Shown here piece by piece: positions 17,210-25,947 of a stretch of DNA of 64,000 nucleotides (positions are counted from its first letter, which is position 1; each line of letters opens with the position of its first letter). This stretch comes from Bradyrhizobium embrapense (GTDB lineage: Bacteria > Pseudomonadota > Alphaproteobacteria > Rhizobiales > Xanthobacteraceae), in contig NZ_LFIP02000010.1 of assembly GCF_001189235.2 (NCBI RefSeq), positions 87,111 to 151,110 of the forward strand, given 5' to 3'. The notes under the pieces are model-generated. The model was not told the DNA's origin, made no database searches, and saw only the letters and a list, made by a program, of their open reading frames with translations. The translations under genes were made by a program, and so were the position numbers.

Positions 17210-18733
17210 CTAAGGTACCGGGGGAGGGACGTTAGCTATGTACCAGATCCGGAAGGTGGCCAGTGCCGGATGCGCCAGCGACCGTTCGAGGTAGGTCCAG
17301 ATCCGCGGCTGGTGCTTCAGATATTGCGGTTTGCCGTCGCGGCGGTTGAGCCGCGCAAAGGTGCCGAGCAGACGGGTGTTGCGCTGCGCCGACATGATCG
17401 CATAGAGCTCGGCGAAGCCGGCGGCATCGAAGCTCTCGTCGGTGGCGCGCCGCGCCTTGATGTAGCGGGTCAGGAGCGACAGCTCGAGCTGCTCGGGTAC
17501 GTCGATCCGCGCGTCCTGCAGCAGCGACACCACGTCATAGGCCGCAGGGCCGAGCAGCGCGTCCTGGAAGTCGATGATGCCGACGCGCAGGATGCCGGTG
17601 CGCTCGGCAAGCCAGATGATGTTCGGCGAATGGAAGTCGCGGATCACCCAGGTCTGCGGCGCCGCGGCGGGCTTCTGCAAGAGGCCGCGCCACATCCCGA
17701 GGAAGTCGGCGCGGAGCTCATCGCTGACCTGGACGCCGCGGTCGGGCAGGTACCATTCGAGCATCAGCCCGATCTCGATCAGCCAGGCGTCGATATCGAA
17801 CACCGGGATGGCGTAGCTCTCGTCTGCTGTCAGCGGCAGCGTGTCGGGCAGCACCTCGCGATGCAGCGCCGCCAGCATGTCGACGGCGGCCTCGTAACGC
17901 TCGGCGATCGGCTGCGGCGGATCGCCCTCGATCACGCCTTCGGCGCCGAGATCCTCGGTGATCAGGAAGCCCGATTCGAGATCGATGTGGCGGATCGCCG
18001 GCGCGGAGAAGCCGTGCTTGCGCAGGCCGTTTCCGATCGCGACGAACGGCCTGACGTCCTCGGCGAGATGCACCGCGGCGCTGTAGGATCTGCCGTCGTA
18101 GATCGCCGGGCCGTCGGGGCGGCGCGGCGAGTTCATCAGGATGACGCTGCCGTCGTCGTTGCGCAGTCGCGCATAGGAGCGCGTCGAGGCATCGCCCGGC
18201 ATCCGCTCGCGCCGGGCATTGAGGAAGCCGCTGCGCTCGAGGAACTGGCGTAGCTCGTGCAGCCGCGCGACCTTCGCCGCACCCTTGCCAAAGCCGGTGA
18301 TCTCGGCTGCGCGTGCGGCCGATCCGAGCGCCGGGCGGTGGCTGAACGCGATGTCGATGCGGTCCGCGGGCATCGCGTCCGGCGCGCGCTCGGGCCACTC
18401 GATCAGGGCGACGATGTCGTCGGGCATTGGCGACAGCCCGATCTCCTCGAGTTCGCTGGCATCGTTGATGCGGTAGAGGTCGGCATGAACCAGCGGAAAC
18501 GACGGCAGCTCGTAAGTCTGCGCCAGCGTGAAGGTCGGGCTCGGCACTTCCAGCGCATCGTCGGCCGCGATGTAGCGGATCAGCGCGCGGGCGGCGGCGG
18601 TCTTGCCGGCGCCAAGGTCACCCGACAGCGTGATGACGTCGCCGGCGCCGATCAGGAGCGCAAGGTCGGCCATCAGCTCTGACGTCGCGGTTTCGTTCGC
18701 GAGCGCCACCGAGAATGTCGAGGTCGCCGTCAT
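17210..18733 (-). CDS. Fusion of TsaE ATPase and AmgK-like sugar kinase
   Basis: A 507-residue two-domain protein. Residues 1 to about 150 are TsaE, the ATPase of the tRNA threonylcarbamoyl-adenosine (t6A37) machinery, with Walker A GDLGAGKT at 38-45 and the DLYRI(N) motif. Residues about 165-507 are an aminoglycoside-phosphotransferase fold kinase with IRDFHSPNI (catalytic Asp) and VGIIDFQDALLGP (metal Asp), matching AmgK, the MurNAc/GlcNAc anomeric kinase. In many bacteria these are separate neighbours. The ATG overlaps the divL stop as ATGA. murU downstream supports the cell-wall recycling role. Confidence 0.88.
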   Translation of the reverse strand: MTATSTFSVALANETATSELMADLALLIGAGDVITLSGDLGAGKTAAARALIRYIAADDALEVPSPTFTLAQTYELPSFPLVHADLYRINDASELEEIGLSPMPDDIVALIEWPERAPDAMPADRIDIAFSHRPALGSAARAAEITGFGKGAAKVARLHELRQFLERSGFLNARRERMPGDASTRSYARLRNDDGSVILMNSPRRPDGPAIYDGRSYSAAVHLAEDVRPFVAIGNGLRKHGFSAPAIRHIDLESGFLITEDLGAEGVIEGDPPQPIAERYEAAVDMLAALHREVLPDTLPLTADESYAIPVFDIDAWLIEIGLMLEWYLPDRGVQVSDELRADFLGMWRGLLQKPAAAPQTWVIRDFHSPNIIWLAERTGILRVGIIDFQDALLGPAAYDVVSLLQDARIDVPEQLELSLLTRYIKARRATDESFDAAGFAELYAIMSAQRNTRLLGTFARLNRRDGKPQYLKHQPRIWTYLERSLAHPALATFRIWYIANVPPPVP

Positions 18734-21240
18734 TCGGCAGCGTTGCGATGGGCGGTCTGGTCGATCGGGAAGTCGCAGGTCACGGTCGTGCCGCGGCCTA
18801 CGGTCGAATCGACGCGCACCCGTCCGCCATGCAGTTCGACAAAGGAGCGGACCAGCGACAGGCCGAGCCCGGCGCCGCGGTGCCGGGAGCCGTGCGAATG
18901 GCTCTCGAACCAGTTGAACACCTTGTCGCGCATCTCGGCCGGAATGCCGGGACCGGCGTCGGTCACCGCAAACACCACGCTGTGCTCGGTGCGGTGCGCG
19001 CTGATCGTGACGGTGGCGTCATGCGGCGAGAAGCCGACCGCATTGGCGAGCAGATTATAGAGCACCTGCACCACGCGCCGCTCGTCGCCGACGAAGGCGC
19101 CGATGTTGGGCTCGATATCGACCTTGAGCGTGATGCGGTCGGTTGCGAGACGGTCCTGGATGCCTTCGGCGGCGGCCTCGATCGCCTGACCGATATTGAC
19201 CGGGCCGAGCTCGAGCTTCATCGCGCCGGCGTCGATGGTGGCGAGATCGAGAATGTTGTTGGTCAGCGCCAGCAGCGCGTTGGTCGATTTGGTGACGTAG
19301 TCGAGATATTCGGCCTGCTTCGGCGTCAGCGGCCCGGTCGAGGGATCGCTGAGGAAATGCGCGAAGCCGATGATGGTGGTGAGCGGGGCGCGCAGCTCGT
19401 AGGAGACGTGGTGGACGAAATCCACCTTCATCTGGTCGGCGGCTTCCAGCGCCTCGTTGCGCTCGCGCAGCGCCCGCTCGACATTTTCGGTGTCGGTGAT
19501 GTCCTGGAAGGCCAGCAGGGTCTTGCCGTCCGGCAGCGGCACCGTCATGCAATTCAGCACGCTGCCATCCTTGCGCTCGAGCTTGAGCGCGACCTGGGCG
19601 CGGTTCTCGATCGCGGTGATCTGCTCGCGCAGTGTCCGCCAGGTCGGCGCGTCGTCGAACAGCGGCCGGCACAGCGCTTCCACCGCCTCGATATGCGGCT
19701 CGCCCTGCAGCGCATCGGCCGGCAGCTTCCACATCTTGGCGAACGGCGGGTTGAACAGCTCGGCGCGGCCGTTGCTGCCGAACACCGCGACCGCCTCGCC
19801 GAGATTGTCGAGGGTCTCGCGCTGCACCCGGGTCAGGCGGTCGTAGCGGCGCGCGAGGTCCAGGCTCTCGGTGACGTTGTCGAACAGGTAGGTGACGCCG
19901 CCCTCGAGATTCGGCGTGGTGACGACGCTGATGGCGCGGCCGTCGGGCAGGAACCAGGTGTAGGTCTCGGCTTCGACCGCGCGATAGGCCTCGTGCAGCT
20001 TGGCCTTCCAGGCGCGGAAGTCCGGCTGCTCGGGCAGCTTGCGGTTGGCGCGCAGCCGGTCGAGCACGCTGGAATCGTCCGGGTTGCTGTCGAGGAAGGC
20101 CTGGTCGAGGCCCCACAGCCGCCGATAGGACTCGTTGTAGAAGGTGAGCCGCCGGTCGGCATCGAACACCGCGACGCCCGAGGAGAGCTGATCGAGGGTG
20201 CGCCGGTGCGCTTCGACCATCCGCGCGATCGCCGCGCGCAGCGCCGCGGCTTCGCTGGCGTCGATCGCAATGCCGGCGCTGCCGCCGGAGAGTTTCAGCG
20301 CCTGGACGTCGTAGATCCGCCGCTCGCCGCTGACGACGATCGGCAGCCGGGCGGCATAATGGGCGTTGTCGTTCAGCGCGCGGGTCAGTTCGCTGCGCTG
20401 GTCGCTTTCGAGCAGTTCGAGGTTGCGCTGCAGCGCGTCCGACACGCTCTTGCCTTCGGTGGCGCGGACATAGGCCGCGTTGGCATAGCGCAGATTGCCC
20501 TCGAGACTCTTGGCCCAGATCGGCCATGGCGCGGCGGCGGCGAAATCGCGCAGCAGCTCGGTCTCCTCCTGCAGCGTCTTGTAGCGCAGGTTGGACTCGG
20601 CAAGCTCGCGGCGCAGGCCGCCAAGTTCCCGGATCCGCACGATGGCCTGGCCGCCGATCGCGCGGCCCATCGCCTCGATGGCGCGGCCGGCCGAGGTCGA
20701 GAGGTTGAGCAGGAACGCCTCGCCCTTCTCGCGCAGCGCGTCGACCGCGTGATCCATCTGCAGCGCCGGCTCGGGCGGCAGCCAGGTTCCGAACGCGAGG
20801 ATGCGTTGCGGCGCGCTTTCCTGCGACATCACCAGCGAGATGTCGCCCGAGATCTGCGGCCGGTTGTCGCCCGCGGCCCAGGAGATCAGGACCTGCGGCT
20901 CGACGAACAGCAGCGCCCGCAGCCGGTCCGACTGCGCCTGCAGGTCCGTGATCTCGGATTGCAGCTGCTCCTCGTTCCGCGTCGCGCGCAGGCGGGTACG
21001 CATCAGAAGGATCGCGGCGACGGCCGAGAAGCCGACCAGCGCGAAGGAGGTCGCGAGAACCGCGACCTCCTGGTGATTGAAGCCGAGATGGTCCGACAGC
21101 GCCTGGGCGACCAGGCTCTCGGCGGCGAACGACGCGCGGGCCGGCAGCAATGCTGACATGGCGAGCCCAAGCATGCCGTCGCGCGCCAGTGAGGTGCATG
21201 ACAGCAGGGTTCGACGCATTGCCGCGACTACGCCCGACAT
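18730..21240 (-). CDS. divL: DivL-type atypical histidine kinase with Tyr at the phosphorylation site
   Basis: An 836-residue membrane kinase: N-terminal signal/anchor, a second hydrophobic stretch (VAVLATSFALVGFSAVAAILL) near residue 70, several PAS-like domains (LSSGVAVFDADRRLTFYNESY near 355, NLGEAVAVFGSNGRAELFN near 482), then HisKA and HATPase_c. The H-box reads VSYELRAPL: Tyr614 (codon 19399-19401) replaces the usual His, the mark of DivL, which controls CckA and CtrA in alphaproteobacterial cell-cycle signalling. The ATP-binding boxes (NLLANAV, DAGPGIP, GAGLGLSL) are intact. ATG 21240 is preferred (GGGG 6 nt upstream) over TTG 21261. Five GANTC sites lie upstream. Confidence 0.92.
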   Translation of the reverse strand: MSGVVAAMRRTLLSCTSLARDGMLGLAMSALLPARASFAAESLVAQALSDHLGFNHQEVAVLATSFALVGFSAVAAILLMRTRLRATRNEEQLQSEITDLQAQSDRLRALLFVEPQVLISWAAGDNRPQISGDISLVMSQESAPQRILAFGTWLPPEPALQMDHAVDALREKGEAFLLNLSTSAGRAIEAMGRAIGGQAIVRIRELGGLRRELAESNLRYKTLQEETELLRDFAAAAPWPIWAKSLEGNLRYANAAYVRATEGKSVSDALQRNLELLESDQRSELTRALNDNAHYAARLPIVVSGERRIYDVQALKLSGGSAGIAIDASEAAALRAAIARMVEAHRRTLDQLSSGVAVFDADRRLTFYNESYRRLWGLDQAFLDSNPDDSSVLDRLRANRKLPEQPDFRAWKAKLHEAYRAVEAETYTWFLPDGRAISVVTTPNLEGGVTYLFDNVTESLDLARRYDRLTRVQRETLDNLGEAVAVFGSNGRAELFNPPFAKMWKLPADALQGEPHIEAVEALCRPLFDDAPTWRTLREQITAIENRAQVALKLERKDGSVLNCMTVPLPDGKTLLAFQDITDTENVERALRERNEALEAADQMKVDFVHHVSYELRAPLTTIIGFAHFLSDPSTGPLTPKQAEYLDYVTKSTNALLALTNNILDLATIDAGAMKLELGPVNIGQAIEAAAEGIQDRLATDRITLKVDIEPNIGAFVGDERRVVQVLYNLLANAVGFSPHDATVTISAHRTEHSVVFAVTDAGPGIPAEMRDKVFNWFESHSHGSRHRGAGLGLSLVRSFVELHGGRVRVDSTVGRGTTVTCDFPIDQTAHRNAAE

Positions 21241-21267
21241 ATGTTGCCCCAGAACGCACAAACCTTA

Positions 21268-21559: not shown

Positions 21560-22021
21560 CTAGCGCCCGGTCGAGCCGAAGCCGCCGCTGCCGCGATCGG
21601 TCGCCGGCAGCACGTCGACCGGAACCAGCTCGGCCCTGGTGACCGGCGCGATCACCATTTGCGCGATGCGCTCGCCACGCCGGATCGGGAATACCTCGTG
21701 GCCGTGATTGACCAGCAGCACATTGATCTCGCCGCGATAGTCGGCGTCGATCGTGCCGGGCGAGTTCAGCACCGTGACGCCGTATTTGGCGGCGAGGCCG
21801 GAACGCGGCCGCACCTGGGCCTCATAGCCCGGCGGCAGCGCGATCGTCAGTCCGGTCGGAACCATTTCGTAGCGCCCCGGCAGCAGCAGCAACGGCGCCG
21901 ATTGCGGCACGGCCGCAAGCAGGTCGAGGCCGGCCGCGTCGGCGGTCTGGTAGATCGGCAGCAGAAGGTCTGCGCCATGCGGCAATTGGCGGACTTCGAC
22001 CTTGATGGTGGCGCTCACCAT
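21560..22021 (-). CDS. dut: dUTP diphosphatase
   Basis: Hydrolyses dUTP to dUMP and pyrophosphate, keeping uracil out of DNA and feeding thymidylate synthesis. The 153-residue protein has the five trimeric-dUTPase motifs in order: [42 protein letters not shown] and the C-terminal [12 protein letters not shown]. The ATG at 22021 overlaps the end of coaBC by 7 nt; a longer open frame upstream is inside coaBC and is not real. coaBC-dut is a common bacterial pairing. Confidence 0.97.
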
Positions 22022-23439
22022 GCGATTCCTACTTCTCTTGCGATCCGCGACACCAGCGCGGTCGCGACTTCTTCCTTGGTCATCACGGGCCAGGAGTCGA
22101 CGGTGACATCCTTGCCCTCGCGCGAGAGCAAATGAACGGTGTTGCGGTCGCCGCCCATCACGCCGGTCGCCGGCGAGACGTCGTTGGCGACGATCCAGTC
22201 GCAGCCCTTGCGGGCGAACTTGGCCTTGGCGTTCTCGATCAGATGCTCGGTCTCGGCGGCGAAGCCGATCACCAGCGGCGGCCGCTTCTCCTTCAGTTTC
22301 GAGATCGTCGCGAGGATGTCGGGGTTCTCGACCAGCTGCAGCGGCGGCATGCCGGCTGCGGTCTTCTTCAGCTTCTGGCTGCCTTCGGTGGCGACCCGCC
22401 AGTCGGCGACCGCGGCCGCAAAGATCGCGACGTCGACCGGCAGCGCGGCCTCGACCCGGTGCAGCATGTCGCGCGCGGATTCCACGCGCATCACGGAGAT
22501 CCCGGCGGGGTCGCCGAGCTCGACCGGGCCGGTCACCAGCACGACCTCGGCGCCGGCGGCGCGCGCGGCGGTGGCGATCGCAAAGCCCTGCTTGCCGGAC
22601 GAGCGATTGGCGATGTAGCGGACCGGATCGATCGCCTCGTGGGTCGGGCCGGCGGTGATCAGCACGCGCTTGCCGGCGAGCGGGCGCGGCTGCGGCGGCC
22701 GCAGCATGCGGTCGGCGGCGGCAGCGATCTCGACAGGCTCGGCCATCCGCCCGACGCCGGCCTCGCCGGCCTCCGCCATCTCGCCCGCATTGGGGCCGAC
22801 GGTGTGGACGCCGTCGCGGCGCAGTTGCAGCACATTGCGGCGGGTAGCCGGATTGTTCCACATCAAGGGGTTCATCGCCGGCGCCAGCAGGATCGGCCGG
22901 TTGGCCGCCAGCAGGGTGGCGGTGGCGAGGTCGTCGGCATGGCCCTGCGCCATCTTGGCCATCAGGTCGGCGGTCGCCGGCGCCACCACGATCAGGTCGC
23001 AATCCCGCGCCAGGCGGATATGGCCGGCGTCGAATTCGCTCTCGGCGTCGAACAGGTCGGTGTAGACGCGCTCATGCGACAGCGCGCTGGCGGCCAGCGG
23101 CGTCACGAACTGCTGCGCCGCCTTGGTCAGCACGCAGCGCACCTGGATGTGCCGCTCCTTGAGCCGCCGGATCAGGTCCAGCGCCTTATAGGCCGCAATC
23201 CCGCCGCCGATGATCAGGGTCACCCTGGGCTCGCCGGCCGCGCTGGTGACCCGTGGTGCAGGGGCTGCAACCGTCAGGGAACCCGCCGCCGGCGCCTCCG
23301 TGGGCTCCGTGCCGCCCTCTGCGAGCTCGCGGAGGATCACCCGGATCTCCTCCTCGACCGAGCGCCCGTTCCTGGCGGAGCGCAGCCGCAGATAGGCTTT
23401 CAAATTGTCGTCGAGTTTGCGGATGGTCAGGCTGGCCAT
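22015..23439 (-). CDS. coaBC: CoaBC with N-terminal FitA-like ribbon-helix-helix domain
   Basis: Makes 4'-phosphopantetheine for coenzyme A: CoaB joins cysteine to 4'-phosphopantothenate and CoaC decarboxylates the product. The 474-residue protein has three parts. Residues 1-43 ([33 protein letters not shown]) match FitA/VapB-type ribbon-helix-helix antitoxins, with a Pro/Ala linker to about 70. CoaC follows with [10 protein letters not shown], catalytic His140 (AGHIRLA) and PAMNPLMW at 187-194. CoaB starts near 255 with [19 protein letters not shown] and [10 protein letters not shown]. The flap Cys (ACG in E. coli Dfp, Cys158) reads EAG here. A perfect palindrome at 23460-23480 lies 21 bp upstream of the ATG, likely an operator for the N-terminal domain. 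Confidence 0.93.
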
Positions 23440-23459: not shown

Positions 23460-23480
23460 TGTGATAGCGATGCTATCACA
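23460..23480. promoter_or_regulatory. Perfect palindrome upstream of coaBC, putative RHH operator
   Basis: Arms TGTGATAGC and GCTATCACA separated by GAT, all 9 positions pairing. It lies in the 58-bp gap between ubiB and coaBC, 20 nt upstream of the coaBC start codon. TGATAGC/GCTATCA half-sites are the type bound by FitA-like ribbon-helix-helix proteins, the domain fused to CoaBC. A second, smaller palindrome ATTGCAAT follows at 23490-23497. Confidence 0.65.
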
Positions 23481-23497
23481 TAGTGCATGCATTGCAA

Positions 23498-25072
23498 TCA
23501 GTGCGTCCGAATGGCGAAAAAGATTGCGATCAGGGCGGCGGCAATGACCCAAAGGCCGACGGTCTGCACCCGCGCCTTGCGGGCCTCGGCGCGGGCCATT
23601 TCGTCGATCGAGTCCGACGACAGCATGTGGCCCTCCCGCGTCATGGTCTCGAGCTGCTCGAGCACCGTGACGGCGCGGTTGGCGATCGACGGCAAATTGG
23701 CGATGATGCGGCTGAGTTCGCCCACACCCGATATCGCGCCCTGAATCCGGCCGGCCGGGCCGAGATTGTGCGTGATCCATTCGCGCACCACGGGGTCGGC
23801 GATCTTCCAGATGTCGAGCTTGGGATCGAAGCCGCGCGCCACGCCCTCGACCACCACCATGGTCTTCTGCAGCAGGATCAGTTCGGGCCGGGTCTGCATG
23901 TCGAACAGGCCGGTGACCTCGAGCAGAAGCGTCAACAGCTTCGCCATCGAGATTTCCTCGGCGGTGCGGTTGTGGATCGGCTCGCCGATGGCGCGGATCG
24001 CTTGCGCGAAATTCTCCACCGAATGGTGGCCCGGCACATAGCCGGCCTCGAAATGAACCTCGGCGACGCGGCGATAGTCGCGGGTGATGAAGCCGAGCAG
24101 GATCTCGGCGAGGAAGCGCCGCTCCTTCAGTCCGAGCCGTCCCATGATGCCGAAATCCACCGCAACGAGGCGGCCGGCGTCGTCGAGGAACAGATTGCCC
24201 GGATGCATGTCGGCATGGAAGAAGCCGTCGCGCAGCGCGTGGCGCAGGAAGCTCTGGATCACCTTGCGGCCAAGGTCCGGCAGGTCGACCTGGGCCTGCG
24301 CAAGGCGAGCGTGGTCGTTCAGCGCGATGCCGTCGATCCACTCCATCGTCAGCACGCTGTGCGCGGTGCGATCCCAGTCCACAGCCGGCACACGGAAATC
24401 CGGATCGTCGCGCGTGTTCTCGGCCATCTCGGACAGCGCGGCCGCCTCGAGCCGCAGGTCCATCTCCATCGCGACCGAGCGCGACATCGTGTTGATGACC
24501 TCGATCAGCCGCAGGCGCCGCGCCTCGGCGGAATGCGCTTCGGCCTTGTGCGCGACAAAGAAGAAGTCGCTGAGGTCGCGGCGGAAGCGCGCGGCGACAT
24601 TGGGCCGGAGCACCTTGACTGCAACCTGCTGTCGCACGCCGTCGCGCTCGACCTCGCCGCGATGCACCTGCGCGATCGAGGCTGCGGCCACCGCCGGACC
24701 CAGCTGCACGAAGGCCTGCGCCAGCGGCCGTTCCAGCGATTGCGCGATGACAGTCTCGGCCTCCTCCTGCGCGAACGGCGGCAGCCGGTCCTGCAGGCTT
24801 TCGAGATCGCGCGCCATCGCGACGCCGACCACGTCGGGGCGGGTGGCGAGGAATTGCCCGAGCTTGAGATAGGCGGGCCCGAGCCGGGTCAGCGCCCGCG
24901 ACAGCCGCGGACCGGACTTGGCGGAGCGGCGCTCGATCAGCCGCGCCAGCTTCAGCGCGAGCTGCCCGGGCGGCGGCACCAGCGCGGGATCGACGACGCC
25001 GAACACGCCCTCGCGCGCAAACACGAAACCGGCGCGGGCAAGGCGCGAGATGTGGGTCAGTGCAGAGATCAC
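23498..25072 (-). CDS. ubiB: Ubiquinone biosynthesis protein UbiB (atypical protein kinase family)
   Basis: ABC1/ADCK-type ATPase required for ubiquinone synthesis at the inner membrane. The 524-residue protein shows the KxGQ motif in [17 protein letters not shown], the Ala-rich loop AAASIAQVH, the catalytic region [15 protein letters not shown] and [10 protein letters not shown], and a C-terminal transmembrane helix ([17 protein letters not shown]). Start is GTG at 25072, overlapping the ubiE stop as GTGA; the open frame continues upstream within ubiE but without family similarity. ubiE-ubiB is a standard ubiquinone operon. Confidence 0.95.
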
Positions 25073-25830
25073 AAACGCCAGCCCGAATGCAGCGCCACGA
25101 TGCCGCCGGAGAGGCTCTGCCATTTCACGCGCGCAAAGCCGGCGGCGCCGATCATGTCGGCGAACGCGTTCGGCCGCGGGAATTTACGGATCGACTCGAC
25201 CAGATATTGATAGGACTCGCCGTCACCGGTGACGGCGCGGCCGAGCGGCGGGATCACCTTGAAGGAAAACAGATCGTAGATCTTGTCGAGGCCGGGGACA
25301 TCGACGGTGGAGAATTCCAGGCACAGGAAGCGGCTGCCCGGCTTGAGCACCCGATAGGCCTCGCGCAGCGCAAGGTCGATCTGCGGCACGTTGCGGATTC
25401 CAAACGCGATCGTGTAGGCGTCGAACGAACGATCGGCGAAGCCCAGCGACTCGGCATTGCCCTCGACGAACGACGCGCGGTCATCGAGATGCTGCCTGGC
25501 GGCGCGCTCGCGGCCGACGGCGAGCATGTCGGTATTGATGTCGCAGACCGTGGCATGGAAGCCGGTGCTCGCGGCCTTGGCGGCCCGGAACGCGATGTCG
25601 CCGGTGCCGCCGGCGACGTCGAGCAGCGCGAACGGCCGGTCGCCCTTCGGCGGGTCGAGCGCCGTGATCATGACGTCCTTCCAGGCCCGGTGCAGGCCGG
25701 CCGACATCAGATCGTTCATCAGGTCGTAGCGCCGTGCCACGCTGTGAAACACATCGTTCACCAGCGTCTGCTTCTCGCCCAGGGGCACGTCCCTGAAGCC
25801 GAAATGGGTGGTTTGATCCGGCCGATCCAT
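25069..25830 (-). CDS. ubiE: Demethylmenaquinone/2-methoxy-6-polyprenyl-1,4-benzoquinol C-methylase
   Basis: SAM-dependent C-methyltransferase of ubiquinone biosynthesis, 253 residues. SAM motif I is [16 protein letters not shown], motif [15 protein letters not shown] and the post-motif [13 protein letters not shown]; the N-terminal [22 protein letters not shown] is the UbiE signature. ATG at 25830 is taken rather than the adjacent GTG at 25833. It overlaps ubiB by 4 nt and diverges from mutM across a 117-bp region holding the inverted repeat ATAGCGC...GCGCTAT (25891-25917). Confidence 0.97.
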
Positions 25831-25947
25831 CACTCAGAACTCTTACCCTTTTGGTCGCGTTTTCTTCGCTCGAAAGCGCCCAGCCAAACCATAGCGCGGC
25901 GGCCGCAATGGCGCTATCACGTCACTTCCAAAAGGTGAATGCCTGCC

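Follow-up and report, generated by a model that had tools for sequence, protein, structure and literature searches.

A FitA-like ribbon-helix-helix domain fused to CoaBC in Bradyrhizobium, with a candidate operator in front of its own gene

Results

The coaBC locus and its protein

The window, by which we mean the whole stretch of 64,000 nucleotides of Bradyrhizobium embrapense DNA analysed here, carries the genes ubiE (25069..25833), ubiB (23498..25123), coaBC (22015..23439) and dut, encoding dUTP diphosphatase (21560..22021), in that order and all in one direction on the minus strand. The stop codon of ubiB is separated from the ATG of coaBC by a gap of 58 nt, and the start of dut is overlapped by the coaBC stop codon; dut is likely to belong to the coaBC operon. 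Downstream of coaBC and dut, also on the minus strand, lies a large PAS-type sensor histidine kinase gene (18730..21261), matched by many NCBIfam kinase models, all under their cut-offs. By eye, a 507-residue single frame on the same strand (17210..18733) resembles a TsaE-like ATPase with a phosphotransferase-like domain after it.

The coaBC product is 474 amino acids long from an ATG start and is built from four parts: a FitA-like ribbon-helix-helix (RHH) domain at residues 1–42 (23314..23439), a Pro/Ala-rich linker at residues 43–71 (23227..23313) that is predicted to be disordered, with pLDDT below 50 at residues 43–68, a CoaC (4'-phosphopantothenoylcysteine decarboxylase) domain at residues 72–239 (22723..23226; Pfam Flavoprotein) and a CoaB (phosphopantothenate-cysteine ligase) domain at residues 254–438 (22126..22680; Pfam DFP). 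The whole protein scores 392.1 bits against the NCBIfam CoaBC equivalog TIGR00521 (cut-off 219.7) and matches Mycobacterium smegmatis CoaBC (6tgv_A) with E 7e-73, aligned over residues 69–465. The CoaC and CoaB columns are conserved in the alignment, and the decarboxylase and ligase activities are predicted ones. The nearest named relative among the best 80 loci is Bradyrhizobium viridifuturi, whose protein is 97% identical.

An earlier sequence-only reading of the window had described this frame as CoaBC joined to a FitA-like DNA-binding domain, and its open reading frame, strand and coordinates were correct. The N-terminus falls within the family that was named: residues 2–39 match the Pfam FitA-like_RHH family PF22513 with E 2.4e-15 and 56.6 bits, above the cut-off of 27. 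We rest the assignment on this profile match, since plain phmmer of the first 70 residues against PDB sequences reaches Neisseria FitA at E 0.06–0.07 only. Helices are predicted at residues 11–24 and 28–40, and no strand is seen in the single-chain model. A monomer model of 60 residues of the RHH region (pLDDT 73) gave no PDB fold match at E ≤ 0.001, the weak best match being a VapBC chain. The same reading held that the fused frame contains no start signal ahead of the CoaC domain. This is close to correct: the window has GTG at codon 73, but a start codon is not conserved at that position, and 19 of 56 orthologues lack any start codon from residue 43 up to the CoaC motif. Its remark that no PIN toxin gene is adjacent holds for the neighbours ubiE, ubiB and dut and extends to the whole genome, where a search that finds PIN domains in 10 of 14 control genomes returned no match to PF01850. 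PF22513 has a single match in this genome, RHH-CoaBC itself, with 150 of 219 candidates scored.

Constraint on the RHH domain

Across 59 coding sequences the RHH domain has a median dN of 0.27, against 0.18 in CoaC, 0.23 in CoaB and 1.27 in the linker; 300 pairs were sampled, of which 263 could be used for the linker. The window protein is matched at 74% identity in the RHH domain, 80% in CoaC, 76% in CoaB and 25% in the linker. Residues invariant in all 59 sequences include R7, R20, R26, S27, E29, E31, R33 and L36. The RHH domain is under nearly the same constraint as the catalytic domains, and the linker is free.

A candidate operator in front of coaBC

The 58-nt gap between ubiB and coaBC holds a palindrome that was absent from the sequence-only reading. 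Candidate operator 1 (23460..23480) is a perfect 9-3-9 inverted repeat, TGTGATAGC-N3-GCTATCACA, that stops 20 nt short of the coaBC ATG. Candidate operator 2 (23484..23500) is imperfect, has its centre about 22 nt upstream of that of operator 1 and includes the half-site TGATTGCA at 23493–23500 on the minus strand; in many Bradyrhizobium this position is occupied by a full palindrome. In these strains TGATTGCA-N-TGCAATCA and TGATAGCA-N-TGCTATCA form a pair of palindromes spaced by 23 nt, and other genera carry three half-sites in 9-nt steps. The sequence TGCTATCA is what we take to be the FitA-type half-site of FitAB, and the same half-site stands at −40 of two FitA-type genes in our set (L220 and L222).

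No second copy of operator 1 occurs in the window at up to three mismatches, nor did 100 shuffles yield one. Its core, TGATAGC-N3-GCTATCA, occurs exactly once in the 8.27-Mb genome. Allowing two mismatches gives 8 places (7 of them with 2 mismatches) against 10 for the reversed control, and we therefore regard the near matches in this genome as background. A sigma-70 scan of the window found no promoter-like sequence at the operator. Overlap of the operator with a promoter was considered from −35/−10 spacings over 60 loci (9 at 17 nt, 26 at 21 nt and 11 at 20 nt) and is not claimed, because the 20- and 21-nt spacings come from the second operator itself.

Co-occurrence of the domain and the site

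To compare loci with and without the domain we used the best 80 loci from a scan of genome contigs, 61 with RHH and 19 without; L058 has no upstream DNA and was left out of the site scoring, leaving 60 RHH-bearing loci. The site TGATWGCANTGCWATCA is found at two mismatches or fewer within 200 nt upstream in 53 of these 60, the other 7 fused loci having no close site near the start, and in none of the 19 RHH-less loci, for which 400 nt were scanned. The best match among the RHH-bearing loci has 0 mismatches in 31, 1 in 15, 2 in 7, 3 in 4 and 4 in 3, and among the RHH-less loci 5 in 2, 6 in 7, 7 in 8 and 8 in 2. Elsewhere in the best 80 loci, over 545,440 bases, no copy occurs at up to three mismatches. 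These counts are not independent, because close relatives make up much of the set. Upstream regions could be read for 39 RHH-less family members (L142, in which the CoaC motif was not found, was left out), and 38 have neither RHH nor site; the sole exception has both, with the RHH as a separate antitoxin gene. When tallied on a tree of 83 rows, RHH and site occur together in 58, RHH alone in 4, site alone in 1 and neither in 20. Five phylogenetically independent pairs could be drawn, of which 3–4 agree and none disagree (p 0.125). By count the association is strong, but few independent changes underlie it.

Base 4 of the half-site can also be set against residue 3 of the RHH domain, with L138 left out as its start is not ATG. 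Ser3 goes with T in 127 of 134 half-sites and Arg3 with C in 10 of 10, and Thr3 is found with C (17), A (12) or T (11). This post hoc covariation of specificity is only suggestive, because relatedness was kept in and the sites were picked by best match.

Confinement of the site to coaBC

An exact TGATTGCANTGCAATCA is present as one copy each in 7 of 31 relatives' genomes, with none for the reversed-pattern control, and all seven copies lie 59–62 nt before a fused coaBC. We then searched 61 whole family genomes, allowing at most one mismatch: 34 with the fusion (two of these with the fusion in pieces on contig ends), 26 without it (one of undetermined state and one without a CoaBC match) and genome G312. 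In the 34 fused genomes, 29 of 31 sites lie at coaBC, that is within 300 nt of it, and the other two are both in G303; a coaBC site is present in 24 of the 34 and absent from 10. The 26 genomes without the fusion have no site at coaBC and 8 elsewhere. One of these, G077, whose CoaBC is RHH-less, has five copies of TGATTGCATCGCAATCA, one mismatch from the motif, at C1:96267, C2:36851, C3:239033, C6:232019 and C14:24110, away from coaBC and from both of its FitA-like genes. The single sites in G323 and G304 also lie away from their FitA-like genes, and G270 has its site some 30 nt away from a separate FitA-like gene.

Since 29 of the 31 sites in fused genomes stand at coaBC, the site looks like a private operator and not part of a regulon. 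It is unlikely that the RHH domain controls further genes, or that it activates instead of repressing: the two additional sites in G303 would fit a regulon, and neither the sigma-70 scan nor the spacing count fixes where the operator lies relative to the promoter, but nearly all sites of the fused genomes are at coaBC and the window's genome, with its one exact site, has near matches no commoner than the reversed control.

Distribution and origin of the fusion

Among 147 CoaBC-bearing genomes sampled from the window's GTDB family, 83 have the fusion in one frame, 3 have it in pieces, 60 are without it and 1 is cut. Across the order (249 genomes), the matches listed place the fusion in 8 of the 9 family genomes and in at least four of another family, belonging to a genus we call g64; across the class (385 genomes), the matches listed place it only in the window's genus. 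RHH-CoaBC is thus not one genome's quirk, given the 83 of 147 sampled family genomes and a fusion that, as judged from the sequence comparisons below, arose more than once.

Genus g64 has CoaBC in 89 of 90 genomes, fused in 66 and not fused in 23. In 19 of the 23 unfused loci a separate FitA-like RHH gene lies about 500–900 nt upstream of coaBC, and the order is ubiB, an adjoining RHH gene in one or two copies, a PIN-like gene and then coaBC. The PIN assignment was made by Pfam in all 12 of the 19 modules tested, and for the remaining 7 by reading alone, from an open reading frame of like size and start. All 18 scored standalone modules have a TGAYWGCANTGCWRTCA-type site upstream at two mismatches or fewer, 10 of them exactly, and the 19th (L118) has TGACTGCATTGCAGTCA before its antitoxin gene. 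The four loci without an RHH gene have 2, 2, 4 and 7 mismatches to the site; in two of them, L114 and L119, a two-mismatch operator-like palindrome is kept just before coaBC. The gap between ubiB and coaBC is a repeated home of differing RHH-PIN modules in this genus (L100–L113, L115–L118 and L121), some of which contain two RHH genes in tandem. In genome G437 (L123/L191) a separate second RHH gene precedes the fused RHH-CoaBC, as if it were the kept first antitoxin of a two-antitoxin module.

These data bear on whether the RHH domain is mainly an oligomerisation or tethering element, with another factor binding the palindrome. RHH domains do dimerise, and the PutA RHH added to a monomeric PutA is reported to give a dimer (PMC5293562). 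M. smegmatis CoaBC, on the other hand, is described as already dodecameric without any RHH (PMC7794376), domain and site are gained and lost together across lineages, and a like site stands in front of the standalone RHH-PIN modules, so that we consider such a role highly improbable.

Several fused N-termini resemble particular standalone antitoxins of g64. That of L191 is 81% identical to antitoxin L098-2 over 79 residues, tail included; those of L089 and L196 are of the L100/L113 type (68–76% over 67–69 residues), that of L194 is of the L110 type (72% over 76) and that of L192 is of the L121 type (55% over about 81). The commonest fused type in g64 (L086) has no close standalone partner within the set. 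For the window protein the antitoxin C-terminal tail was not matched. Because the fusions retain the tails of different antitoxins, the fusion has recurred. The tails kept in L191, L194, L192 and L089 could also mean that the RHH still neutralises a PIN toxin in trans, in the manner of an antitoxin or anti-addiction domain; this can hardly be so, as the window protein lacks the tail and its genome has no PF01850 PIN domain.

L160 (genome G312), from the window's own family, carries a perfect site and behind it a standalone gene for a FitA-like antitoxin (55.4 bits in Pfam). On the 3' side of the antitoxin there is a short stretch that looks like the start of a PIN protein joined to the ending GIEVIDPWND, which resembles the GIxIVNPW ends of related PIN proteins, and coaBC follows. 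The PIN gene was apparently lost here through an internal deletion. L202, a fused locus of the same genus as L160, has kept an antitoxin tail that is weakly similar. We infer that the direction was from module to fusion because of the antitoxin tails and the L160 scar, rather than from a rooted tree.

A tree of the CoaBC core was built from 83 proteins with the RHH columns excluded; L016, L042, L061, L069, L076, L185 and L213, in which the CoaC motif was not found, stand outside it. Fused, module-bearing and bare genes are interspersed in this tree, and g64 falls among members of its own family (support 100) and not with the window's family, a placement that rejects transfer of the whole gene between the two families. 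A single clade of all fused genes was rejected with p 1e-106, and a single clade of the g64 fused genes with p 6e-4 (quick tree).

It may be asked whether the domain is simply a non-functional fossil of a toxin–antitoxin module, fused through deletion of the PIN gene. The fusions do resemble the products of such a deletion, as seen in the near-whole antitoxin of L191 and the relic in L160. The RHH domain in the window's family evolves nearly as slowly as the catalytic domains beside a free linker, however, with residues such as R7 and R20 invariant, and the operator has been retained together with it, which makes a fossil very unlikely.

Discussion

The sequence-only reading had proposed that the enzyme binds DNA and sets its own expression. 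Comparison supports this well, through a constrained RHH domain, an operator-like site that co-occurs with it and the near confinement of that site to coaBC. We consider it likely that the protein is a functional CoaBC with an RHH domain domesticated from an antitoxin, acting in a PutA-like way as autorepressor of coaBC(-dut) at half-sites arranged head to head. In this mechanism RHH dimers displayed on the CoaBC oligomer would bind 8-bp half-sites, TGATWGCA, paired before coaBC(-dut), and binding would repress rather than activate. As CoaBC rises coaBC-dut would be repressed, the enzyme would set its own level and RHH-CoaBC would probably slow its own production. The halves of the FitAB operator are bound by RHH dimers of the antitoxin, and the PIN toxin, which makes no contact with DNA, bridges them (PMC3920265), with contacts at six of the eight bases of each operator half (PMC6118392). 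A CoaBC oligomer would show several RHH dimers and could bridge half-sites, presumably standing in for the PIN toxin of FitAB.

The earlier reading further suggested control by flavin, pantothenate or CoA status. This is plausible, because mycobacterial CoaBC is reported to be inhibited by CoA and acyl-CoAs (PMC7794376); that substrates, CoA thioesters or FMN alter DNA binding is speculative. We hold more tentatively to a wider possibility, that resident RHH-PIN modules have repeatedly been absorbed, in independent inventions in which the PIN gene was lost, the RHH was fused and the CoaBC oligomer replaced the PIN dimer as bridging co-repressor at the former module's operator, which made the enzyme an autorepressor dependent on the CoA state.

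RHH-CoaBC probably works like PutA and is not a toxin–antitoxin system. Trifunctional PutA is an RHH-fused flavoenzyme and autogenous repressor (PMC5293562), and RHH-CoaBC likewise has an N-terminal RHH on a flavoenzyme and a candidate operator at its own gene. The two differ in enzyme and pathway: RHH-CoaBC is without proline dehydrogenase and P5C dehydrogenase domains, its candidate operator is an array of FitA-type half-sites, its RHH comes from toxin–antitoxin antitoxins and any ligand or redox switch in it is hypothetical. With FitAB and VapBC it shares the FitA-like RHH and an inverted-repeat candidate operator at the gene's own start, but it has no toxin, nor in the window a toxin-binding tail, and the RHH sits on an essential metabolic enzyme. 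Canonical CoaBC (Dfp), as in M. smegmatis 6TGV, shares the CoaC and CoaB domains, whereas the RHH, the disordered linker and the candidate operator are extras of RHH-CoaBC. PADLOC gave no match to anti-phage defence for CoaBC, one antitoxin and one PIN protein. We found no report in the open-licence literature that links CoaBC or phosphopantothenoylcysteine with a ribbon-helix-helix, or CoaBC with Bradyrhizobium; the main text of a toxin–antitoxin survey (PMC2701414) contains neither pantothen-, coaBC nor Dfp, and pantothen- is also absent from the text of PMC4803016. Repeated antitoxin capture is the most unusual side of RHH-CoaBC.

The locus bears on the fate of chromosomal toxin–antitoxin modules, as living relatives show steps by which, on several occasions, an RHH-PIN module gave rise to a regulatory domain in an essential enzyme. 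The candidate binding site is predicted to the base. Control of CoA synthesis is usually taught as lying at pantothenate kinase, and a self-repressing CoaBC, if true, would be a second control point in the pathway.
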